64,000 nt of DNA, taken from IMG/VR virus record IMGVR_UViG_3300027823_000006, positions 26,155 to 90,154 of that record; one strand, given 5' to 3'. Both the position numbers and the translations under genes were made by a program. Each line of letters opens with the position of its first letter. The first letter of the stretch is position 1. The DNA comes from a virus. Positions 3,064 through 50,334 of the stretch are shown here, piece by piece. The notes under the pieces are model-generated. The model did not search any database. It was not told the origin of the DNA and saw only the letters and a program-made list of their open reading frames with translations.

Positions 3064-5742
3064 CTACAGGAACCGATAGTTCTGCGTCAGGATGATGTGT
3101 GCGAACCAGCCAAACAGCTGGGCGTGCAGGCAGTCGTCCGGCTGCGTGGGCGCGTGACGCCACACCTTACGGCCTTGCATCGTGACCTCCTCGTAGACGT
3201 TGAGGATGTCGTTGATAGCCGGACTTGCCTGCTTCAGGTTCGGATAGAGCATCTGCTTGTGCAGCAGTTGTCGCGCAAAGTTGTCGATCATTGTGGTGCG
3301 GTCGGCGCTGTAGACCATCGCGTTCGGGTTCCACTCGTACGGCTTCGACAGCGACATGTAACGAATGGACGTGACGCGATGGTCTCCGAGCTTCGCACGC
3401 AGGTACGAGTTGCCGATGGCGCCTTCACCGGCGTCACCGACCAACATCTGGACGCCCCATGCGTTGCACAGTTCGACGATCTCGTCGACCCAGCCGACCG
3501 CGTGACCGTTGGGGAAGATCTTGTAGAAGAGCGTCTTGAGACGACCGTCGGCGAGCTGGCCCCAGATATGGAGCACCGTGCGCGACTTGAACATACCTTC
3601 GCTGCCCTTGATCTCGGCGCCTCCGCCAGACCAGTCGACGCCGGCAGTCACGCGAACGATGCCCTCCTTGGAAAGGGGCAGCGGCAACCGCGTCATCTCG
3701 TGATTCTCGTCGCACAGGGCTTCGAGGATCTCCTTGGTGAGAAGACGAACACCTGTCGACGTACTGACGCCGATGCACTCGTTTAGAAAACGGGACTCGC
3801 CATAGAGAGGCGATTCCATCTTGTAGAGGAGCTTTCCCCAACGCTCGAGGGCCCCTTCGTATCCCACGGACCCCGGCTGCCATGACGCGGGCACGTTGAC
3901 AGGCATGATCGCCTGGGAGATGTGGAAGCCTTTGATGCCAACAGCCTTGTCCTTGGACATGTCGACCCACTGACCCTTACGAGGGTCGAGATAGGTACCA
4001 CAACCAATACAGATAGGACCCAGCTTACCCAAGCCCTTGGTGCTGTCGATAAACGTCCACTTACCACACCCCTTGCACCGCATGCACCATTCGGTCTGCG
4101 ACGACTGAGACCACAAGAACTCAATGGTGTTCTCCATCGTCTTGGGTGTGCCTGCGTAGGCCGAATACTGATATGGCGAGTTAGCCATACACTGACCTGT
4201 AATGAGCGGACGCAGTCCTGGACCGCCGCGGACGACAGGCCGATGATGAGGAACCGTAAAACAATACACGGGCTCATCTGTTACGTGTTCAGTAGTTGTA
4301 CTGTTCTTGCGCCGATAAAAGACAAAGAAATTGTCGACGTAAGCGCATATTTCGTAAGCGATCTTGTCAGGCACGTATTCACGTACACGTTGATTAGGTG
4401 ACCGTCCACACAAGGTCCAAGCGCGATGGACACTGTCGGCCAAAGACTTGGAAACGGTAAACAACGTCCAACGGTCCCAAGACATACCTTCTCGGGCAGT
4501 TGCATTTCCGAGGTAAATGCCTGCGAGCACTTGGCGAAGTAGGTCCTCCGACATGAAGAACTCGTCGGGAATGTACTTTTCAAAGGTGTTTCCGAGACGA
4601 TGAAAATACTCACCGAGAATTCGCGAGTTGATCGTAACGTGTTTGATGTACGGTTTTTTCGAGTTCGAAGCGATGGAATACGTTAGCCCGCAACGCTCGA
4701 TCGTTTCGATAATATCCGACAGGTAGCGCCCCTCGCTTTGTGTAATACAGGGGCGTGGACAGGTCTTAACACCTCTACGTTTAGCCCAACGTATAGAGCC
4801 TTCCGAAAGATACCAACCAACAAGACGCGCGAAGGCATCGTAGGGTAAATCGATTCCGTGAGCGTTCTGACCGTGCGCACCTAAAATGCCGGGAAACGTT
4901 CGACGAAGTGGTGTTGTTGATGTCCGAAGGCCTGCGGGACCCGTTAGTCGAAATGCTTCGCCTTTATCTGTTGCGATACTGCGAGCACTCGAGAACCGCC
5001 ACGATGCTCGCGACATGGACCGTGTCTCGCCCTTCGGGTGCACCCACATCATATGGTCGCCGGTCACACGGATAGACATTTGGTCGTGATTGAACGAAAC
5101 CATCTGACCTGTATGGCGTTTCTGAATCAGTTGCGTCGGATGATGCCACTCGATTCGACCGTCTTCGTCGACATCCGCAATTTCGTCCGCGAGATTTACT
5201 TCCGCTACAGAAATCCAACCTCGTTTACATAGAACTTCTGTACGTGAATCGAAACATTCTTCGATGACGGGAATGACGGACTCGTAAAGGATGTCCTGCA
5301 CTTCGTCGAAGTTGCATCGGTCTGCCGAGTAACCACGTGCACGGTCCGGATCATCGAGAGCGTATGTGAACGCCATCTCGGAACCGTTTGTGAACATACG
5401 CAGAAGCACGTTGTCGATCGAATTCGCGTTGACGAACCCCCTCCGAAGGTCGGGGCTGTACGCGAGGATCTTGGCAACGCGTGTATGCGAGAACTTTCGA
5501 GTCTGTTCTTGCGTCGGTGAAACGTAGTAGGACTTGAAGTTTGGCGTCGCGACCGCCTCGGCGATCATGAACGCGGCCAGGGTGGTCGACTTGGTGACCT
5601 GCCGCCCCGTCTTCAACAGAAGCCGAGGGTACTTACCGTCGTAGACCGCGCCGAACATTGGGTAGTCCTGTAGCGACAACGGCTTGCCGTCGACGTAGAA
5701 CATCCCCTGCGCGATGGTTGAACGATAAACCTCTTCCGACAT
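3064..5742 (-). CDS. terL: Terminase large subunit interrupted by an intein
   Basis: The ATPase-nuclease motor that packages and cuts phage DNA. The 892-residue precursor would splice to 537 residues. Walker A is GRQVTKST (46-53) and Walker B is CNFDEVQD (D146, E147). The intein occupies C163-Q517, right after the Walker B helix. A Cys cluster follows (C553, C556, C559, C578, C581) and looks zinc-binding. The RNase H-like nuclease has D703 (GVDWSGG), D770 (VGDAGEG) and D870 (QPDDCLHA). The joined exteins read VIEE-CMANSPYQ, a natural TerL sequence, which supports the intein call. The gene is - strand like the other virion genes; no CCTATAAT box is seen directly upstream. Confidence 0.95.
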   Translation of the reverse strand: MSEEVYRSTIAQGMFYVDGKPLSLQDYPMFGAVYDGKYPRLLLKTGRQVTKSTTLAAFMIAEAVATPNFKSYYVSPTQEQTRKFSHTRVAKILAYSPDLRRGFVNANSIDNVLLRMFTNGSEMAFTYALDDPDRARGYSADRCNFDEVQDILYESVIPVIEECFDSRTEVLCKRGWISVAEVNLADEIADVDEDGRIEWHHPTQLIQKRHTGQMVSFNHDQMSIRVTGDHMMWVHPKGETRSMSRASWRFSSARSIATDKGEAFRLTGPAGLRTSTTPLRRTFPGILGAHGQNAHGIDLPYDAFARLVGWYLSEGSIRWAKRRGVKTCPRPCITQSEGRYLSDIIETIERCGLTYSIASNSKKPYIKHVTINSRILGEYFHRLGNTFEKYIPDEFFMSEDLLRQVLAGIYLGNATAREGMSWDRWTLFTVSKSLADSVHRAWTLCGRSPNQRVREYVPDKIAYEICAYVDNFFVFYRRKNSTTTEHVTDEPVYCFTVPHHRPVVRGGPGLRPLITGQCMANSPYQYSAYAGTPKTMENTIEFLWSQSSQTEWCMRCKGCGKWTFIDSTKGLGKLGPICIGCGTYLDPRKGQWVDMSKDKAVGIKGFHISQAIMPVNVPASWQPGSVGYEGALERWGKLLYKMESPLYGESRFLNECIGVSTSTGVRLLTKEILEALCDENHEMTRLPLPLSKEGIVRVTAGVDWSGGGAEIKGSEGMFKSRTVLHIWGQLADGRLKTLFYKIFPNGHAVGWVDEIVELCNAWGVQMLVGDAGEGAIGNSYLRAKLGDHRVTSIRYMSLSKPYEWNPNAMVYSADRTTMIDNFARQLLHKQMLYPNLKQASPAINDILNVYEEVTMQGRKVWRHAPTQPDDCLHAQLFGWFAHIILTQNYRFL
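4192..5256 (-). mobile_element. Intein with LAGLIDADG-type endonuclease in terL
   Basis: A 355-residue intein, precursor residues 163-517. It starts with C163 (CFDSRTEVLCKRGW, block A). It has a block B TGDH (227-230), an endonuclease segment with LVGWYLSEGSI (block C, about 307-317) and LAGIYLGNATA (block E, about 406-416), then EPVYCFTV (block F). It ends ITGQ before C518, so the last residue is Gln not Asn and the penultimate residue is Gly not His. In block E the usual acidic residue is Asn (LGNA), so DNA cleavage may be lost or weak. The DNA is visibly more AT-rich than the flanking terL sequence, which suggests later arrival. Confidence 0.9.
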
Positions 5743-27002: not shown

Positions 27003-28072
27003 TAGAGAGGTCCTTGTTCAATACCGCCAACCACCCACACACCCTTTTCGAAGTCGAACACCATTGGAGCGGTCACCTTAGAGAATGGCTGCTCCTTAAA
27101 CGCGGCCGTCGCCGCATACAGCGTGCTCTGTCGATTGTTGAGCGTCTGTTGGATAAAGGTGTCGTGCCGTGATTGCGCCAATTTGGTGGCAGACGTGTCT
27201 TGGTTCTGTAACGACGTCGCCCGGTCTAAGCTCTGGATAATAACGGCGGCGTCGCTCGCCATTGTTTGTGCACCGAATGCATTCAAAATAGGCATCACAA
27301 TACTGCTGCCTAACCCTGTACCTGACGTCGAGTCCTGATGTCCGGGCCAGGCATTCGGAACGAAGGCAGTTGGACGAACGATGGTTACGATGGGGCCCGA
27401 TACGAACGAGACTTGGATGGGCAGCACGGGATTTTTCTTCGAAAATCCTGCGGGACCGCCGGTACCGCCGGCCTTTCCAATTTGCTGACCCTCGGTTACT
27501 TGGTTGCCCGGGGCGATGGCTGAGACGCTGACGCTGTCGAGGCGGAAGTACTCGGTGCGATAGCCTTCGAAATCCCCGCTGTGGAGGATTTGGATGATGA
27601 TGCCACCTTCACCAACATCACGAGGCGTCGCGACGGCGTCGGACCCGCCTCCGTAGATGTTGCCCTTGGAATCCGCGTGCGCGCTCTCCAAGTTCACGAG
27701 CCCGATCGTTTTTGACTGGAATCCGACGAAGACGACCGTGCCATCGGCCATCGCGAAGACGGGCTCGCCCGAGACGGCGTTGAAGTCCAGCGACCGATGT
27801 CCTGAATCCCAACCGCGCACCAATGACCGTTCACGCTGCTTTCCGATCGAGAACGGACCTGTGGGCGCGAGCGGGGAGCCTAGCAAACGTTTGGTAGGGA
27901 CCGGCGCTGTATCGTAGAAGCGCTGTTTGGTATCGGGGTCGTACTCGATGCCCGGTCGCTGCGCGTTGGCATCTGATGACGACTTATCACCCTGCGCTGA
28001 AGACGCGCGAGCGAGCCCCGTCCCCATTTCTTTGACGGATTCCCACGGATCGGGCGGCTTTGGATCAGCCAT
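27002..28072 (-). CDS. M23-like protein, probably inactive
   Basis: 356 residues with a lysostaphin-type fold: GHRSLDFNAVSGEPVFAMADG matches the H-x3-D side of M23 peptidases. The partner HxH site is replaced by LPIQVSFVS near the end of the domain, so the zinc site is broken. Residues 1-60 are charged and disordered. It probably serves as a baseplate hub or spike part rather than an enzyme. It overlaps the sigma-factor gene by 8 bases and shares its operon. Confidence 0.7.
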   Translation of the reverse strand: MADPKPPDPWESVKEMGTGLARASSAQGDKSSSDANAQRPGIEYDPDTKQRFYDTAPVPTKRLLGSPLAPTGPFSIGKQRERSLVRGWDSGHRSLDFNAVSGEPVFAMADGTVVFVGFQSKTIGLVNLESAHADSKGNIYGGGSDAVATPRDVGEGGIIIQILHSGDFEGYRTEYFRLDSVSVSAIAPGNQVTEGQQIGKAGGTGGPAGFSKKNPVLPIQVSFVSGPIVTIVRPTAFVPNAWPGHQDSTSGTGLGSSIVMPILNAFGAQTMASDAAVIIQSLDRATSLQNQDTSATKLAQSRHDTFIQQTLNNRQSTLYAATAAFKEQPFSKVTAPMVFDFEKGVWVVGGIEQGPL

Positions 28073-28817
28073 GGACCTTCTCCACGTGTTCGATGAGTTT
28101 CGCCTTGGCGTAGGAGTATTGCCCCTGCGTCATGCCGAGCTTCTTCTGGATCTCTTGATTCGAGAGCTGCTCGGCACCTCCGTAACCTGTCAAGTGCTCG
28201 AAGATGGCTTTGTGTTGCGGCGTCAGGGCGTGGTGAATGAAGTCGACAACATGCTCCTGCTTGTCTCCATCATAGAGCCCTGCGTCACCCGTCTCGAACA
28301 GACCGCCTGACTCGAGCAGCTCCCTGCGGCCAATCGACTTCCGATACGCCTCCACATGAGGGATTGGCCATCCGAGATGATCCGCAAGCTCGTCGGTCGT
28401 CGGTGCGCGTCCGTGCGCGTCCGAGAGGTCCGAGTGCGCAACGTTGTAGCTGTGGTAGAGCAGCATCTTGTTCTCAGGGAGCCGTGCAACGTTCTGATTC
28501 GCGTACGACAACCGAGACATCCGCTGAAGTTGGTTAACGACATGGGTGCCGAGCGCCGCACCCTTGTTCGGATCGTAGTTGTGGAACGCCTCCATCGCGA
28601 GACGCTTGCCTTCAGATTCCAAGAGAGGACGAGCCATCGTGCCCGCCCATTTGTTCGCCTCACGATGAATGAGCGGCGAAACGTGCGAGAGCAAAGCAGA
28701 CGCGTTTGCGTCCGTCGGACTCTTCTTCCACGCATGCCACGCATCAATGTCTTGCGTCTGGCGATTCGTTACCGCCAGCTTTGCAAAACGAGACAGCGTG
28801 TTCGTCATAGAGGCCAT
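28065..28817 (-). CDS. Sigma-70 family RNA polymerase factor
   Basis: 250 residues. Region 2 is seen as SPLIHREANKW, EAFHNYDPNKGAALGTHVV and QLQRMSRLSYANQNVAR. Region 3 is GRAPTTDELADHLGW with the following helix. Region 4 is LTPQHKAIFEHL, then LSNQEIQKKLGMTQGQYSYA. This order matches SigB/FliA-type sigma factors. It sits between the hub peptidase and the M23-like gene inside the baseplate operon. It would redirect the host RNA polymerase, perhaps to the CCCTATAAT late promoters. An alternative is a structural protein with a coincidental fold. Confidence 0.8.
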   Translation of the reverse strand: MASMTNTLSRFAKLAVTNRQTQDIDAWHAWKKSPTDANASALLSHVSPLIHREANKWAGTMARPLLESEGKRLAMEAFHNYDPNKGAALGTHVVNQLQRMSRLSYANQNVARLPENKMLLYHSYNVAHSDLSDAHGRAPTTDELADHLGWPIPHVEAYRKSIGRRELLESGGLFETGDAGLYDGDKQEHVVDFIHHALTPQHKAIFEHLTGYGGAEQLSNQEIQKKLGMTQGQYSYAKAKLIEHVEKVHG

Positions 28818-34061: not shown

Positions 34062-37000
34062 TCACCTCCTCGACTGGAAGTTCGGGTGAGCGATCACTTG
34101 CGCGAGCGTCGTGATCGATTCGTGGAAGTCCTTCACCGAGGACGAGAACAGCACTGACGAATCCGCCTGCGCCTGCGCAATGTCTGTATCGCTCGCGTCG
34201 CCACCTTTTTTGGCCAGTTCGTCTCGTGCCCGCGTCACCGCATCAATTTGAGCGTCGATTGCAGATGTTGCAGCGCCTTCACCGCCGCCATGCACCGTCT
34301 TCATGGTCTTAGGTGCTTCACTGACGAGCATGTCCTCGACCTCTGCATCGCCACCGCCTGCAGCGAGCGCCTTCTTGGCCTTCTCGAGCTTATCCGCGCG
34401 AGCGCCCTGACCCCTCTCACGAAGGGCATCAATGGACGCGAACGACAACTTCCCGAGCGCCTCCTTGATGTCATCCGAACCGCTCAATCCTGATTGCACG
34501 TCTTCGAGGTTCTCGAGCGCCTCCTCCTGTGCGGCGCCGAGCATCTCCTTGCCAAACCGATTGCGCAGATTCTTGCCAATGAGGCCTGACATCGCGTCAG
34601 CACTCACGGTTCCGGTCGTCGTCACCGTGTTGGTGAGCGCGTCCTTCGCGTCCTCGCTCATGTTCATCATGAGGTCGGTCGCTTCAGCTCTCTTCTTGGA
34701 GTAGTCACCGCCGAGCTTCGCTTCATAGCTCTTGAGAAGCTGCTGTCCTAACTCCTGCGTCCGCTCGTCCTTGGAGTTGGACGCGTTCAGGGCGCCAGCC
34801 AATCCAACGACGTCGTCGTCACCGCGCTTGAGGACCGCCTTGATCTCAAGCATCGTCTCGCTGCTCTCGTCATCGAGGCCGAGCATCTCGTCGGTGAGCT
34901 TGATGTCGTCGCTGATCGCTTCACGGCTACGCAGCTGGCTGACTGTACCTGCCTCTGAAGCAAGCTCTTGAGCCTTGGCGCCGACCTCGATCAACTTCTC
35001 GTCGCCGCTCGCCAAGACGTCCTTCGCCATGAAGGCGCCGAACTTGTGCTTGCTCTTCTCGTACATTGCTTCGGCTTCAGCACGCGACATCTTGTTGTCG
35101 GTGCCCGCCTTGATGACAGCCTCACGGATGTCATTCTCTGATGCAGCAGTCGCGCCCTTGATAGTCCCGGCTTTGTAGCCCTTCAACGTACGAATGAAGT
35201 TGTTGGACGCGGCCTCCATGATCTGTGCGCCTGACACGCCCTTCATCTTGTCTCCGTCCATGCCGCGGATGTGAGCTTCAACCTCGGCTGTGGCTGCGAC
35301 AGATTTGGCCGCAGAGAACGATTCTGCGTCTGTGAACGCGCGTGCTGCGCCGACAACTCCTTGCACGCGTTTCATCGCTTCCTGCGGATCACCGAACGTC
35401 GAGAACGGATGCAAGCCGGTGTACGAACCGTCGATCCGGCTCGCGATGTCTGTGATGCGGTTCTCGTTGCTGAGAGAAGACAAACCCAAAAAACTACCCA
35501 TACGGTTCAACTGCCGGCCTGCGGACCGCTTGAACGCACCGCCGAGTGATCCATCCTGCTCGTCCATGAAGTTGGAGCCCGCCTGTTTCAGGGTGCGCTG
35601 GAAATCTCGGTCACGATACGCGGCGCGCATCATCATGCGGTCTGAGTCGTCCTTGACGACCTGCAGCTCGCTGTAGCGATTGATACGCAGTCCGCGACCT
35701 GCCGCCTCTTCGTTCTCGTTCGTGCGATCCATGTGTTCGGAGAGCAAACGGAACGGAGAAGACACGGTGTCGCTGGCGTCATTGAAAAAGCCGCGAACAC
35801 CACGATCCATTCGGAGCATCACGCCCGGTGTGCGGTACTGCTCCCGCTTCGCCGAGTCTTGCTCGGACGCCGTGATCCGTTGGACTTTGAGCTGTTCGAT
35901 TTCACCGTCCCAAAACTTCCGACTCTCGCCTATCTTGCCTATGGTGCGGGCTTCGGTCTCGGACATACCCATCTCACGGAATCCCGCGGCGAGGTCAGCA
36001 CCGTTTCCGATCTTCTGCGCCAGGACCTGTGCCTGACGAAACGCCATCGTCTGCTTCTCGAGCGGGTCGAGCTTCTGTGAAATCTGATCCTTGAATTCTG
36101 CGATCCGGTTCGCGAACTCGAGGTTGCCCGAAACACCAATCTCCCGAAGTTTCGTCGCAGCCATCTGCGAGACTTCTTGGAACGAAAGACCATGAGCTTT
36201 GCGATAAAGGTTCGGATCGACCGTCATCGCGCCGTTCTTGTCGCGCGTCAACGACGCCGCAAGATAAGGGCTGTTGTCCATTGCGTCGAGTTGGGCCTTC
36301 GTCATGATCTGGGCGACACCCTCCTTGCCGCCCGCACGTGAGAGCTGTAGATCGTTGAGTGCGCTGGTGGAAACCGCGATGTTCGCAGAAGCGGCGCCGA
36401 CCATGCCCGCGCCATAACCTGTTGCGCCAGCGAGCCCCATGCCCTGCGCCATGCCCGCGCCCATCTGACCGTATTGATGCATCTGGCCTTGGGAGACGCC
36501 GGCCATACGCGCGAACGCGGTGCGGTTCGCGACAGCGCCGCCTTGCGCCGCGAGCCCCTGGAAACCCATGTCACGCATTTGCCCAAGTGATTGGATGGCG
36601 CTCTGCACATCCGGATCGCCGGTGATTTTCATCAAGACCTTGATGGTCTTTGAGATGTCTTTCACCTTCTGAACAAGTTGATCGGGTGACTGGGCACCGG
36701 ACAGCAGTCCTTGCTGTCCGGACTGCTGCATGATCTTCATGGTGTCCTGGGTGTTGAACCCAGTCCGCTCGAAGTCATGATCGCGCTGAAGATTGCGAAT
36801 GCCTGTCGCAGTCTGGCGCGCAGAATGCGCATCCATACCTTGGCCAGTCATCGTATTCATTGAATGTCCAGACACCATGAACGGTGATGTCATCTGTTGA
36901 ATCTGGCGACCGCGTGCGAAGTCCTGTGTGACGGGGCCCGTCATCATCCCGGAAACAGCGCCGCCAATCTTCCCGCCAAGCCACGCACCTGCAGCGGTAC

Positions 37001-37643
37001 CCATTGGGCCGAAGGCGGACCCGAGAAGGCCACCGGCGACAGCGCCGCCAACACCCATCACACCCTCGGTGACGCCAGCCATCGTACCCATCGTCGACGA
37101 CTGAGCGTGCTGCATGATCTGCAGGTTGCGCATCGCAGGTGACGCGAAGTGAGACGTCGGGTGCGTTGGTGCAAATGGATTGAACACCGACGGCATACGC
37201 GGCGGTCCGCCACCCGCGAATCCACCACTAGCAAACGTGCCACCGCCGGCAAATCCGCCGCCACCACCGAAGCCACCGCCTCCGCCGCCACCACCAGGAC
37301 TCGAGAAGCCACCGCCGACAGGCGGCGCCATGAACGGATTCATCGCGCCCATTCCAACCATCGCGCTGACCGAGGGCGTCGGTGCCGATGGGGGTGGCTG
37401 GTATCGCGTGACCTGAGCAGCTTGCAGCGACTGTTGCACCATCGCGTCGTGTCGCTGCATCGCCTGTTGCCCGTAGTCGCCAGGGCTCATGATCGGCGGC
37501 GGAGGCGGCGGAGCTTGGAACTGCGAACCTGCACCACCCATCGCTTGGGCTTGCGGCATCGGCAGCAATCCAAGATTGAATTGCATCGCCGAGAACCCCG
37601 ACATCATCTGGCGAATGGTGTCGTTCGACTGTTGGTCAGCCAT
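34062..37643 (-). CDS. Tail tape measure protein
   Basis: 1193 residues. The N-terminal 170 residues are Pro/Gly-rich (Gly runs near 115-125). A Gly/Ala-rich hydrophobic segment follows around residues 190-240 (GVGGAVAGGLLGSAFG, WLGGKIGGAVSGMM), then about 900 residues of charged helix. Length and position after the chaperone pair mark it as the ruler of tail length. At roughly 0.15 nm per residue, a tail near 180 nm is expected. ATG 37643 follows TATAAT by 8 bases with no Shine-Dalgarno site, so the mRNA looks nearly leaderless. Confidence 0.88.
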   Translation of the reverse strand: MADQQSNDTIRQMMSGFSAMQFNLGLLPMPQAQAMGGAGSQFQAPPPPPPIMSPGDYGQQAMQRHDAMVQQSLQAAQVTRYQPPPSAPTPSVSAMVGMGAMNPFMAPPVGGGFSSPGGGGGGGGFGGGGGFAGGGTFASGGFAGGGPPRMPSVFNPFAPTHPTSHFASPAMRNLQIMQHAQSSTMGTMAGVTEGVMGVGGAVAGGLLGSAFGPMGTAAGAWLGGKIGGAVSGMMTGPVTQDFARGRQIQQMTSPFMVSGHSMNTMTGQGMDAHSARQTATGIRNLQRDHDFERTGFNTQDTMKIMQQSGQQGLLSGAQSPDQLVQKVKDISKTIKVLMKITGDPDVQSAIQSLGQMRDMGFQGLAAQGGAVANRTAFARMAGVSQGQMHQYGQMGAGMAQGMGLAGATGYGAGMVGAASANIAVSTSALNDLQLSRAGGKEGVAQIMTKAQLDAMDNSPYLAASLTRDKNGAMTVDPNLYRKAHGLSFQEVSQMAATKLREIGVSGNLEFANRIAEFKDQISQKLDPLEKQTMAFRQAQVLAQKIGNGADLAAGFREMGMSETEARTIGKIGESRKFWDGEIEQLKVQRITASEQDSAKREQYRTPGVMLRMDRGVRGFFNDASDTVSSPFRLLSEHMDRTNENEEAAGRGLRINRYSELQVVKDDSDRMMMRAAYRDRDFQRTLKQAGSNFMDEQDGSLGGAFKRSAGRQLNRMGSFLGLSSLSNENRITDIASRIDGSYTGLHPFSTFGDPQEAMKRVQGVVGAARAFTDAESFSAAKSVAATAEVEAHIRGMDGDKMKGVSGAQIMEAASNNFIRTLKGYKAGTIKGATAASENDIREAVIKAGTDNKMSRAEAEAMYEKSKHKFGAFMAKDVLASGDEKLIEVGAKAQELASEAGTVSQLRSREAISDDIKLTDEMLGLDDESSETMLEIKAVLKRGDDDVVGLAGALNASNSKDERTQELGQQLLKSYEAKLGGDYSKKRAEATDLMMNMSEDAKDALTNTVTTTGTVSADAMSGLIGKNLRNRFGKEMLGAAQEEALENLEDVQSGLSGSDDIKEALGKLSFASIDALRERGQGARADKLEKAKKALAAGGGDAEVEDMLVSEAPKTMKTVHGGGEGAATSAIDAQIDAVTRARDELAKKGGDASDTDIAQAQADSSVLFSSSVKDFHESITTLAQVIAHPNFQSRR

Positions 37644-37649
37644 TTGGGG

Positions 37650-37660
37650 TTATTATAGGG
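37650..37660 (-). promoter_or_regulatory. Late promoter motif P4 (CCCTATAATAACCCC)
   Basis: TATAAT at 37652-37657 on the - strand, 8 bases before ATG 37643 of the tape measure gene. It likely drives the long tail operon. No -35 box is seen. Confidence 0.6.
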
Positions 37661-37671
37661 GAATCAAGCAG

Positions 37672-38061
37672 TTACTTGGCATTCTTGGGGTTTTGGCGAT
37701 CGTAGTACTCACCCATCCGATTTAGTCGCTGGATCAACTCCTCGTCGCGTCGGCGTTTGGCCACGATCTCGGCCTGCGCAACCTTCCGGCGGAAGACCTT
37801 CGCCTTCAAGATCTCTGGGTCGTACGTCTCCTGGAACACCTCGGACGCGTACTCCGAAACGATCCCCGCGAACGCTTTCCCAGCGTCCACGTTGAACACG
37901 CGCGCGATCATCTGCGCGATCGCATTCACGTGAGCCACGCGCTCCTGGCGCTCCCGGAAGATCATCTCACGCTGAACGCGATCCTCGATGGAACCGTAGG
38001 GCGCGAGTTCGACGCCGCGTGCGTACAACGTCGCGCGGGCGTTACCTCCCGGGCCTCCTAG
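37672..38061 (-). CDS. Tail chaperone C-terminal part, made by -1 frameshift
   Basis: This frame has no good start codon: the nearest is TTG 38028. It is open from the slippery site at 38061 down to 37672, and its frame is exactly -1 relative to the gene ending at 38058. Reading across the slip adds 129 residues to the upstream protein: 11 junction residues, then 118. The long form would be about 329 residues. It is highly charged and helical (IVAKRRRDEELIQRLNRMG). This is the GT-type part of the classical tail-chaperone pair that binds the tape measure. Confidence 0.8.
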   Translation of the reverse strand, partial: LGGPGGNARATLYARGVELAPYGSIEDRVQREMIFRERQERVAHVNAIAQMIARVFNVDAGKAFAGIVSEYASEVFQETYDPEILKAKVFRRKVAQAEIVAKRRRDEELIQRLNRMGEYYDRQNPKNAK

Positions 38062-38660
38062 AAATTTTCGATCGCACCCTCCTCGAGAACGATGCCGATC
38101 ATGCGGTCGAACTTTGCAAGCTTGGTGATGAGGAGGCGCATCGCAGGATCGGACAGCGATTCGACGTACGACATGCGATTGAAGAAGGCTTTCTCAACGT
38201 CGTCGTTCTTCGTGCCCTTCATGACGTGGGTGAGCTTGTCGTCGCCGAAGCGTTCAAGCGATGATGCGAGCAAGAGCCGGGCGAGCATCTCGCTGTAGTG
38301 AACGTCGTACGTAAGACGCTGCGCTTCAATCTGTTCTTGCGCACGGCGAGTATCGCGCGCGTTCCGCGTCCGGAAACGTGCCTTGATAGACTTCGTGATC
38401 TGGACGTCTTCAGCGTAGAAGCCCTTGAGCAAGACCGCATCGATGATCTCCGCGGCCTTTGCTTTGGTCACCCCGATCTCTTTCAACCGTTCTTCGTACG
38501 AGATCATCGGCTTGAGCGTGGCTTCGTCTTTCTGAACGGAGTCCTCGAGATTCTGCTCTGCACGGTCGAGAGCGTCCTTGGTTGGCGACGCACCTGTCTT
38601 GGGGGGATCGACCACAGGACGTGTGAAGTCACCGATGCGAGCGTCATCCGTAGTTGCCAT
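38058..38660 (-). CDS. Tail assembly chaperone (short form)
   Basis: 200 residues from ATG 38660 (MATTDDARIGDF); an upstream TTG at 38675 is possible. Helical, acidic N-terminus, ending RMIGIVLEEGAIENF. The last two sense codons AAT TTC lie in the slippery heptamer. Its place directly before the tape measure matches the lambda G role, coating the tape measure while the tail tube is built. It is the first gene of the tail block. Confidence 0.78.
   Translation of the reverse strand: MATTDDARIGDFTRPVVDPPKTGASPTKDALDRAEQNLEDSVQKDEATLKPMISYEERLKEIGVTKAKAAEIIDAVLLKGFYAEDVQITKSIKARFRTRNARDTRRAQEQIEAQRLTYDVHYSEMLARLLLASSLERFGDDKLTHVMKGTKNDDVEKAFFNRMSYVESLSDPAMRLLITKLAKFDRMIGIVLEEGAIENF
38061..38083 (-). 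promoter_or_regulatory. Programmed -1 ribosomal frameshift site
   Basis: Slippery heptamer A-AAT-TTC (38061-38067) with the zero-frame codons GAA AAT TTC, then TAG. The Shine-Dalgarno-like AGGAGG (38078-38083) sits exactly 10 bases upstream, the spacing known to stimulate -1 shifting in dnaX. A strong downstream pseudoknot was not found by eye. Confidence 0.8.
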
Positions 38661-38709
38661 GGAATCTTGGTACAAGGAACAGACGAGGAAAGCAACTGAT
38701 CGTCTTGAT

Positions 38710-38744: not shown

Positions 38745-40850
38745 ATGCGAACGGTAGCTGACCTTCTGACCGATCCCGTACACGGCTTGGTACGCGAAGC
38801 GCGCCCGCCCCAGCTCTCGATGGCCGCCTCCATCGAAGAAGTTCTCCGTGACGGGGGAGCCTACTTCTGCGAGGCGCCGGTTGCCACCGGCAAAACGTAC
38901 GCGTACCTCCTGCCGGCGCTTCTGGCTGCCGGACGCCGGGTCGTCGTTGCAACGGCCAAGAAGGGCCTCCAGGACCAGATCGTCGGCAAGGATTTCCCGA
39001 CGCTGAAACGCATCCTGAACATGCCGTTCGCGACGGCCATCCCACTCAAGGGCAAGGGCAACTATGCCTGCCAGATGTCGGCGGTTTCAATCATCGACAA
39101 AGGCGGCGAGGGCGGCGCTCCGTACATGGACTTCATCCGCAGAAACCTCTACGGCGATCGGGCTGAGTACCCAGGCATGCCGCCTCGTTGGTGGGGATCT
39201 GCATCGGCCGAAGACTGTGTCGGCAAACGGTGCGATTTCTTTGACGACTGCGGCTACATCCGCCTCAAGCGAGACACCACGCAGTCCAAGCTCATCGTGA
39301 TCAACCATCACGTGCTCGGTGCCGAGATGTACTTCGGCCACGGCAAACTCGTGGGCGGGCCCTACGACGTTCTCATCATTGATGAGGCGCACACGCTTGC
39401 TGCAGGAATCCGTTCGGCGTTCACGCACCGGGTCAGCGAGGACTCGATCTCAGGGTTGGTGGATTTGCTCAAGCGCACGAGCGGTTCGTTCCCTCGCATC
39501 CGCGAACTACTCGAGCCGTGGAAAGCGATGTTCGAAGCGGTGCCCAACAAGCACTACCAGGATGCGAGCGCCAAGGATGTTCCTGTATTCGACGACGCGC
39601 TAGCGCGAGCGGCTATCGACGGACTTCGTGCTGCAGCTGTCGAACTGACCAAGAAAACATCCGAACTCAACGCCGATCCTGTTGAATCGGAGCCAGAGGA
39701 GCGGACGTACAACCACCCCGACGACGGCCTGTCTGAGTTCGATGAAGAGATGAAGGGCATCGAAGTCGACATGACAATCGAGAAGGTGCGCAGTGAGGAA
39801 TACAAAGCGAAGGACCTCGCGTTCCTTACCCAGGCGACGCGACGCGTTGACTCCCTCTTGCGCGGGCTGCAGACGTCGCAGGGCATGGTGGACCCCGACC
39901 TCGAGATCACAGACCCCGAACAGCAGGCGATGCGCCGCGAGCGCATTCTCGCCAACACGGCGATCTACGCAACACAGGACGACCGCGGGCGCTTCGGCAT
40001 CAACTGCGCGCCTGTGAGTGTTGGCGGCATCGCAGGAAAGTACTTCTCGGCGATCAAAACGATCGTGGTGTGCAGCGCGACGCTCGCCGTCAACGGCGAC
40101 TTCGAGCACGTGACCAGCATGACGGGACTGTCACCGGCAAAGGCAGAAGTTCTGCCAACGGCATTCAACTACGACGCACAGGGCTTCGTGTTCGTACCTC
40201 GTAACCTGCCCGCAATCGGTCGAGTGAATCCAGACTACGCCAAGGTCATGCAGAGCCGCGTCGACATGGCGGTCCGTCTCGTGGAGCTGTCGGATGGTGG
40301 CGCCTTCATTCTCACGACGGCGAACGATGAACTCGACGCATTTGCGACAGCGCTCAAGCAACGCTTCCCTGGTCGCACGTTCGCGCAGGGCCATCGGAAG
40401 AATCCGTGGGACGGTGACCCAAACGCGGCGCTCAAGCAGTTCAAAGCGACGCCGGATTCGATCCTCGTCGGTTCGAAGTCGTTCTGGGAAGGTGTCGATG
40501 TTCCGGGAGGCGCACTTCGGCTGGTCATCATGGCCAAGCTTCCGTTTCCGCAATACAACGACCCGATCATCAAGGCGCGCGAGCGGCTCGCAGGGAAGAA
40601 CGCCTTCCACGACGTTCAACTTGTCGACATGCTCATCGACTTGCGTCAGGGCGTTGGTCGATTGATTCGTACGAAAGACGACCGGGGGTGCGTTGCGATC
40701 CTCGACAGTCGCATCTGGGACAAGAGCTACGGAGGCGCCGTGCGCAAAGCCCTGCCGTGGTCGAACAACGCGATCACGTCAGACATGGCGGTGTGCGAAC
40801 GATTCATTCCGCGTTTCGTCGAGCACTTCCGGCGCACTACGGCCGCGTGA
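38745..40850 (+). CDS. DinG/XPD-type Fe-S helicase
   Basis: 701 residues. It unwinds DNA 5' to 3' or removes RNA/DNA hybrids and blocks. Motif I is EAPVATGKTYAY (43-54), the DEAH box is IIDEAHTL (213-216) and late motifs are SKSFWEGVDVPGG and RQGVGRLIRT. Four Cys (C109, C158, C163, C169) between motifs I and II make a likely 4Fe-4S cluster. An Asp/Glu-rich linker around 325-345 is unusual. ATG 38745 has AAAGG before it and a GTTTAY motif upstream. It starts a run of + strand genes. Confidence 0.92.
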   Translation: MRTVADLLTDPVHGLVREARPPQLSMAASIEEVLRDGGAYFCEAPVATGKTYAYLLPALLAAGRRVVVATAKKGLQDQIVGKDFPTLKRILNMPFATAIPLKGKGNYACQMSAVSIIDKGGEGGAPYMDFIRRNLYGDRAEYPGMPPRWWGSASAEDCVGKRCDFFDDCGYIRLKRDTTQSKLIVINHHVLGAEMYFGHGKLVGGPYDVLIIDEAHTLAAGIRSAFTHRVSEDSISGLVDLLKRTSGSFPRIRELLEPWKAMFEAVPNKHYQDASAKDVPVFDDALARAAIDGLRAAAVELTKKTSELNADPVESEPEERTYNHPDDGLSEFDEEMKGIEVDMTIEKVRSEEYKAKDLAFLTQATRRVDSLLRGLQTSQGMVDPDLEITDPEQQAMRRERILANTAIYATQDDRGRFGINCAPVSVGGIAGKYFSAIKTIVVCSATLAVNGDFEHVTSMTGLSPAKAEVLPTAFNYDAQGFVFVPRNLPAIGRVNPDYAKVMQSRVDMAVRLVELSDGGAFILTTANDELDAFATALKQRFPGRTFAQGHRKNPWDGDPNAALKQFKATPDSILVGSKSFWEGVDVPGGALRLVIMAKLPFPQYNDPIIKARERLAGKNAFHDVQLVDMLIDLRQGVGRLIRTKDDRGCVAILDSRIWDKSYGGAVRKALPWSNNAITSDMAVCERFIPRFVEHFRRTTAA

Positions 40851-50076: not shown

Positions 50077-50334
50077 ATGATCACGACGAAGGAACGCACG
50101 GCAGCCGAAGAGGCTGTCGGGTGGGATCTACCTGTGCACGACATCATGGTTGCGTTGCAGAAGTGGTCTGAGACACCGCTCGAGGCAATGCGCGAAACCC
50201 TTGAAACCGCCGTTGAAACATTCAACGCCCACGGAGGCCGTGGCGTATCGGTGGCCGATGAAATCGACATGCTGCGCATCGCTATCGCGGTGCGTGAGGT
50301 CCGTGAATCACATGGAGATGAAGCAATTAGCTGA
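50077..50334 (+). CDS. Small helical protein
   Basis: 85 residues from ATG 50077 with AGGAGG before it. Acidic and helical (AMRETLETAVETFNAH). No known motif. Confidence 0.6.
   Translation: MITTKERTAAEEAVGWDLPVHDIMVALQKWSETPLEAMRETLETAVETFNAHGGRGVSVADEIDMLRIAIAVREVRESHGDEAIS

Follow-up and report, generated by a model that had tools for sequence, protein, structure and literature searches.

A predicted programmed -1 frameshift site in the tail operon of a large uncultured bacterial virus

The junction and its neighboring genes

The DNA studied here, hereafter the window, is a 64,000-nt part of a 90,154-nt IMG/VR virus record, and the genes concerned lie on its minus strand (Table 1). The upstream gene of the junction ends in GAG GAG GGT GCG ATC GAA AAT TTC TAG, and the -1 frame, which begins CTA GGA GGC CCG GGA GGT AAC GCC CGC GCG, continues past this stop. 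An initial annotation of the window had described the heptamer A-AAT-TTC as abutting the TAG of a tail gene, with an AGGAGG exactly 10 bases before it and a -1 frame open from the slip, and the coordinates bear out each of these points. It had missed the stem located downstream of the heptamer, the presence of which gives the signal the arrangement of a Shine-Dalgarno (SD)-like element, a heptamer and a stem. Within the complete 90,154-nt record GAAAATTTCTAG is found in a single copy and AAATTTC in five copies. Neither Rfam nor a tRNA scan returned a match within the window.

Table 1. Features of the junction in window coordinates
Feature	Coordinates	Strand	Remarks
Upstream (G-like) gene	38058..38660	(-)	200 codons from ATG 38660 through TAG 38060-38058; product probably a tail assembly chaperone
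AGGAGG, putative internal Shine-Dalgarno-like stimulator	38083-38078	(-)	exactly 10 nt before heptamer (gap 38077-38068)
Slippery heptamer A_AAT_TTC	38067-38061	(-)	0-frame TAG directly after
-1 frame (T-like) extension	37672..38061	(-)	129 codons plus TAA 37674-37672
Stem P1, 5' arm CCCGGGAGGT	38044..38053	(-)	after 7-nt spacer
Stem P1, 3' arm ATCTTCCGGG	37953..37962	(-)	
Hairpin P2, inside P1	38012..38042	(-)	94% of cells paired in five sequences; weaker support than P1
Hairpin P3, inside P1	37966..38007	(-)	94% of cells paired in five sequences; weaker support than P1
Next gene, candidate tape measure protein	34062..37643	(-)	1193 codons; position, length, no Cys, few Pro

The designation of the upstream gene as a tail chaperone gene in the initial annotation finds some backing in predicted structure and gene position but none in sequence families: its product, in six sequences, matched no chaperone family of Pfam or PHROGs, the hits being at chance level, and comparison with the sequences of solved structures recovered nothing significant (best E 0.44). 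The best structural model of this protein has a pLDDT of 73.3 (54.5 to 39.9 in the other four), and its top match in the PDB is the HK97 tail assembly chaperone 2ob9, with a weak score (E 0.08, prob 0.85) and an alignment that excludes about 47 N-terminal residues of the model; the next unrelated entry follows at E 0.8. A VIA comparison ranks first YqbN (3klu; Z 6.9, 83 aligned, rmsd 3.2), which we take to be a relative of the tail chaperones, and second 2ob9 (Z 6.1, 91 aligned, rmsd 7.2), after which the scores drop to 4.5 and 3.4. The best matches in BFVD are uncharacterised phage proteins (E 4.5e-4 and 2.2e-3) and gp181 of phage G (0.013); five proteins that bear the name tail assembly chaperone or GT follow at E 0.35-1.2. 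None of the chaperone-fold matches in these three collections is significant singly; together with the position of the gene they suggest that the protein is likely to be a tail assembly chaperone. The model of the T-part is all-helical, and a fold search with it in BFVD recovered no significant match.

The junction had further been placed before the tape measure gene. A long ORF does follow, measuring 1153-1252 codons in six sequences, but its product, in the same number of sequences, matched no tape-measure family of Pfam or PHROGs, with hits only at the level of chance. The protein is devoid of Cys and has 14-22 Pro after residue 200, and its position, length and composition make it a candidate tape measure protein. 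The contractile-sheath family of Pfam was detected in 0 of 8 records, which may be fragments.

The wider neighborhood offers several side observations. Multisubunit RNA polymerase beta-type genes are encoded in the record upstream of the window (L030:7186-11601(-) and L030:4611-6392(-)), and the window itself encodes a sigma-factor-like protein (28065-28817(-); phrog_351, E 2e-10). The element TTGTACCAA (38667-38675(-)) is situated 15 nt before the ATG of the upstream gene in five of six sequences, and its one other copy in the record precedes the large RNA polymerase gene by 25 nt; similarly, a CTAYAATA box (37650-37658(-)) lies shortly before the start of the next gene in 5/6 sequences. These two elements are possible promoters for the polymerase that the phage encodes, and messages begun at them would be near-leaderless. 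A divergently transcribed 701-codon gene (38745-40850(+)) resembles, by eye, a DinG-type helicase. The terminase large subunit (3064-5742(-), 892 codons) is matched in two separate pieces (30-158 and 518-848) and shows a thymidylate-synthase-family match at 143-236; the split match and the latter match suggest that it contains an intein.

Relatives and conservation of the junction

Protein and profile scans recovered eight IMG/VR records, and a scan with the alignment of the next gene added two more (L038 and L040). As the latter were retrieved through the next gene, without any use of the junction, they constitute a blind test, and both were found to carry the same junction. A junction pattern recovers the eight records of the protein and profile scans, and a looser one exactly the ten known relative records. 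Duplicate loci of the same contigs were removed before counting, and L008 and L011 were left out as being identical at the junction to L007 and L010, respectively; the window and its ten relatives thereby reduce to eight distinct sequences. L006 is 100% identical to the window in both proteins. The five- and six-sequence statistics on codon use, SD background, stem placement, folding, covariation and column swaps predate L038 and L040, and counts over five sequences exclude L013, the most divergent one. Among named phages (50,697 phage records, a collection that may omit records close to the window) no relative was recovered by DNA or by either protein, and a pattern scan with the profile of the -1 part found no match in bacterial and archaeal genomes.

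The codons GAA AAT TTC are invariant across all eight distinct sequences, with TAG directly after UUC in every one of them, and the in-frame heptamer of the X_XXZ_ZZN form is A_AAT_TTC in 8/8. In six sequences AAT accounts for 3.6-35% of the Asn codons, this residue being otherwise encoded mostly by AAC, and GAA for 18-52% of the Glu codons, GAG being the commoner Glu codon in five of the six genomes. Given the codon use of each genome, and ignoring relatedness, the chance of an all-AAT column in six sequences is about 3e-5 and that of an all-GAA column 8e-4; when the invariant codons of the gene are ranked by how improbable they are in the same set, Leu-1 CTA, Asn AAT and Glu GAA all fall within the top four. 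Other 4-fold codons in the -1 frame show pairwise differences of 5/24 to 16/19 (about 20-84%), and it is this divergence elsewhere in the frame that excludes a mere lack of divergence as the source of the invariance at the junction.

Codons 1-10 of the -1 frame read LGxPG[GA]NARA in all eight sequences, and the first ATG, GTG or TTG appears at codons 11, 11, 12, 17, 18, 30, 30 and 42; in the window it is the TTG at codon 12, the next being an ATG at codon 33. The initial annotation had remarked that this frame has no good start codon, and, since the conserved codons precede any ATG, GTG or TTG, independent initiation at one of these cannot explain the conservation of LGxPG[GA]NARA. Most likely, judging from these sequences, the extension is made only as part of a fusion of 329 aa in all.

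The elements flanking the heptamer

The best duplex of the SD-like element with the 16S tail reaches -12.2 in five sequences, -10.0 in L038 and L040, and -6.8 in L013. The dnaX-like upstream SD of the initial annotation is accordingly strong in seven of the eight distinct sequences but weak in the most divergent one. No codon-phased position of the next gene binds as well as the junction SD in L006 (0/1174), L007 (0/1189) or L009 (0/1164), while about 0.2% do so in L010 and L012 and 7.5% in L013; in L038 and L040, over a wider spacing range, 2.6-3.7% of positions bind as well. The phage makes use of SD sequences in initiation, with 41% of starts (58 crude gene calls) at <= -6 against 6% of internal positions. 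The distance of 10 nt in the window lies within the 9-14 nt published for stimulation of -1 shifts by an SD (excerpts of PMC5009743). Codon bias alone could nevertheless supply much of the SD because GAG is the commoner Glu codon in 5/6 genomes. The SD region GGAGGGT (38076-38082(-)) could also pair with the P1 3' arm (37956-37962(-)) at 53/56 cells over eight sequences, and this pairing is a possible competing fold.

Downstream of the heptamer, the consensus fold of six sequences features a long-range helix, CCCGGGAGGC/GTCTTCCGGG, which begins 7 nt past the heptamer and encloses two hairpins. The 10-pair helix P1 was picked from this fold, and L038 and L040 are for that reason its only held-out test. 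P1 is paired at 50/50 cells in five sequences and at 58/60 in six. When a helix of 10 bp is tried at 50,140 placements over the surrounding 470 nt, P1 is the sole one to attain 50/50 (runner-up 45/50, five sequences), and none of 302,736 placements in the less conserved alignment of the next gene exceeds 45; over eight sequences P1 still ranks first, with 74/80 cells as against 70 for the next helix. It is included in the minimum-energy fold of each of the five sequences taken individually. A first helix of at least 10 bp at that distance is seen in 0.6-1.3% of gene windows in six genomes, and at the junction in 6/6. Further, in a column-swap test, wherein invariant codon columns are exchanged with columns of the same residue such that residues and relatedness are both kept, 0 of 20,000 swaps reach the pairing of P1 (maximum 48/50, five sequences), and the best stem with any partner attains at most 46 in 400 trials. 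Arg-36, which lies in the P1 3' arm, is encoded by CGG in seven of the eight sequences, CGG making up 12-26% of Arg codons in six genomes.

Several results count against the stem. Dinucleotide-shuffle z-scores of the downstream region are modest, at -1.25 to -2.32, and between 2 and 26 out of 200 shuffles fold equally well; in L006 and L010 the folding energy is unremarkable in comparison to other windows of the same genes (4.7% and 9.1% as good, respectively). Pair-count covariation is slight, both for the whole structure (97/500 shuffles as high, five sequences) and for P1 (17/500, six sequences), and in P2 and P3 it is little above that of shuffles (five sequences). Each of the held-out L038 and L040 forms 8/10 P1 pairs; their first helix, of 6 bp, and their folding energy are ordinary, with 19-20% and 27-41% of windows, respectively, being as good. 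L013 likewise retains 8/10 P1 pairs, several of them G-U, and folds differently, into a long local hairpin about 5 nt past the heptamer (L013:6004-6072(+)), the 10-bp helix of which is matched at that distance by 0.85% of the gene windows of this genome. Comparison of these sequences indicates that P1 is probably a real conserved stem, and that the inner hairpins P2 and P3 are possible. Search rules derived from 271 IS3-family members require a hairpin, simple or branched, that is 17-140 nt in length and starts 4-10 nt past the motif (excerpts of PMC4066793); P1-P3 have a spacing of 7 nt and a length of 101 nt, with a weaker structure in L038 and L040 and the other hairpin in L013.

Proposed frameshifting, its alternatives and known systems

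The above observations make it very probable that the junction is a programmed -1 frameshift site, by means of which this large uncultured bacterial virus would produce two proteins from a single message of the tail operon. At the TAG the majority of ribosomes would terminate, setting free the 200-residue G-like chaperone. A minority might be held on two sides, at the rear by the pairing of AGGAGG to 16S rRNA at a distance of 10 nt and at the front, 7 nt ahead, by the branched RNA structure that the 10-bp stem closes. In these, both tRNAs would slip back by one base on A_AAU_UUC, that of Asn from AAU to AAA and that of Phe from UUC to UUU, and the slipped ribosomes would read the 129 codons of the -1 frame to yield a 329-residue G-T fusion. 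By analogy to lambda, the short form could coat the tape measure protein, and the fusion could recruit the tail tube subunit. Tandem -1 slippage on A_AAU_UUC, aided by the SD and the stem, appears the most likely mechanism; the sequences themselves show the heptamer, the two frames with their conservation, the lack of early ATG, GTG or TTG starts and the conserved SD and stem, and from these we infer the slippage, its rate, the contributions of the two flanking elements and the chaperone and tape-measure functions. The case for the frameshift is strong, that for the stimulators good but incomplete, and that for the roles of the proteins circumstantial. Sequence and comparison agree with two products from one start, the longer one arising through a -1 shift close to where the first ORF terminates, and the proposal of a lambda G/GT-type -1 shift in the initial annotation fits well with the invariant heptamer codons, the conserved -1 frame and the strength and spacing of the SD.

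Several alternatives were weighed against this reading. The downstream ORF could be a separate gene whose translation, coupled to that of the upstream gene, begins at a weak start such as TTG 38028, and the window indeed possesses this TTG at -1 codon 12 with an SD-like GGGAGG upstream of it. However, the distance between the two is about 15 nt, the first ATG, GTG or TTG in five of the eight sequences falls at codons 17-42, past LGxPG[GA]NARA, and the codon invariance of the heptamer would be left without a reason; while rarer starts (CTG, ATT) are conceivable in some of the sequences, the first listed CTG of L013 being codon 22, the conserved codons 1-10 already make a separate start unlikely, and we consider a separate gene very unlikely. 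A fused message generated by transcriptional slippage on AAAATTT, a short A4T3 run, is more unlikely still, given that the runs reported for this contain more than 7 A or more than 8 T (excerpts of PMC3711429) and that the phase of the heptamer is conserved. A sequencing or assembly error, or a decayed gene, has nothing in its favor except the split frame, and the occurrence of the same junction in 10/10 relative records already refutes it, leaving it a negligible likelihood. Reassignment of the stop codon was rejected because the 0 frame runs into a second stop shortly past the TAG and differs from the conserved frame. The E. coli dnaX gene itself was likewise rejected: the heptamer is not A_AAA_AAG, and the protein contains no clamp-loader family.

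Two further alternatives accept the frameshift and differ as to how it comes about. Slippage of a single P-site tRNA on U_UUC, with the TAG in an empty A site, would accord with the TAG directly after UUC in 8/8 sequences, and U_UUY tetramers are known to shift in E. coli in the presence of a strong stimulator (excerpts of PMC4066793). Nevertheless, the last A of GAA, which only a tandem shift needs, is also invariant though GAG is the commoner codon, and the TAG is largely forced by the Leu-Gly of the -1 frame; we regard the single-tRNA route as improbable. Alternatively, the codons chosen for conserved residues (EEG in the case of the SD; PGG and FRE in that of the stem) might have produced the AGGAGG and the stem incidentally, with the heptamer acting alone, a view to which the commonness of GAG, the lack of a good SD in L013, the slight covariation and the partial stem in the held-out sequences lend some weight. 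We hold it to be rather unlikely: in five sequences the SD outbinds 99.8-100% of the codon-phased positions of the next gene, the P1 pairing withstands the column swap with residues and relatedness kept (0/20,000), and CGG is retained at Arg-36 in 7/8 sequences despite a usage of 12-26% in six genomes. Tandem slippage with both elements assisting hence remains the preferred reading.

Extending this reading to the whole group, we lean towards the view that in a large-phage lineage, of which the member in the window has multisubunit RNA polymerase genes of its own, the ratio of the two tail-chaperone forms is set by a complete cassette of SD, heptamer and branched stem in the style of dnaX and IS911, on A_AAU_UUC; in its most divergent member a different local hairpin would have replaced the long-range stem at nearly the same distance, with the heptamer remaining fixed. 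The predicted site extends tail-chaperone frameshifting to a lineage of large uncultured phages whose chaperone goes unrecognised by Pfam and PHROGs, and suggests that signals at a junction can indicate a chaperone gene and a probable tape measure gene that sequence families miss. Moreover, the eight sequences form a natural set in which the SD and the stem vary around a constant heptamer, such that the separate contributions of these elements are testable in a simple reporter.

As regards the slippery sequence, termed uncommon in the initial annotation, A_AAU_UUC was not found in a tail chaperone in a partial literature search, which is no claim of absence from print; yet motifs of the H_HHU_UUY form, A_AAU_UUC included, are an efficient class in E. 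coli (excerpts of PMC4066793). The overall arrangement is like that of lambda G/GT, in which a gene located just ahead of a long one has a -1 shift close to its 3' end and gives a short form and one extended in the -1 frame (excerpts of PMC5009743). Lambda, in contrast, slips on G_GGA_AAG (excerpts of PMC7618472), and, unlike in G/GT, the junction described here combines a strong SD inside the gene with a stem conserved on the 3' side, and its upstream protein belongs to no chaperone family found in Pfam or PHROGs. The signal itself is reminiscent of E. coli dnaX, which combines an SD-like element upstream, a heptamer and a downstream stem (excerpts of PMC3711429), the distances here being 10 and 7 nt. 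The dnaX heptamer, A_AAA_AAG, is different from A_AAU_UUC. Frameshifting in dnaX leads to the shorter product and its signal has a short hairpin, whereas in this case there is a long-range, branched stem and the frameshift product is the longer one. The combination of an SD, a heptamer and a simple or branched hairpin is also found in the IS3 family (IS911-type; excerpts of PMC4066793), to be compared with the 7-nt spacing and 101-nt length seen here, and the structure in IS911 has been termed a three-way junction (excerpts of PMC5009743); the junction differs from the IS3-family transposase signals in gene, function and heptamer. Thus, in conclusion, the locus is best viewed, on the strength of these sequence comparisons, as a putative member of the G/GT class that carries a dnaX/IS3-like signal.
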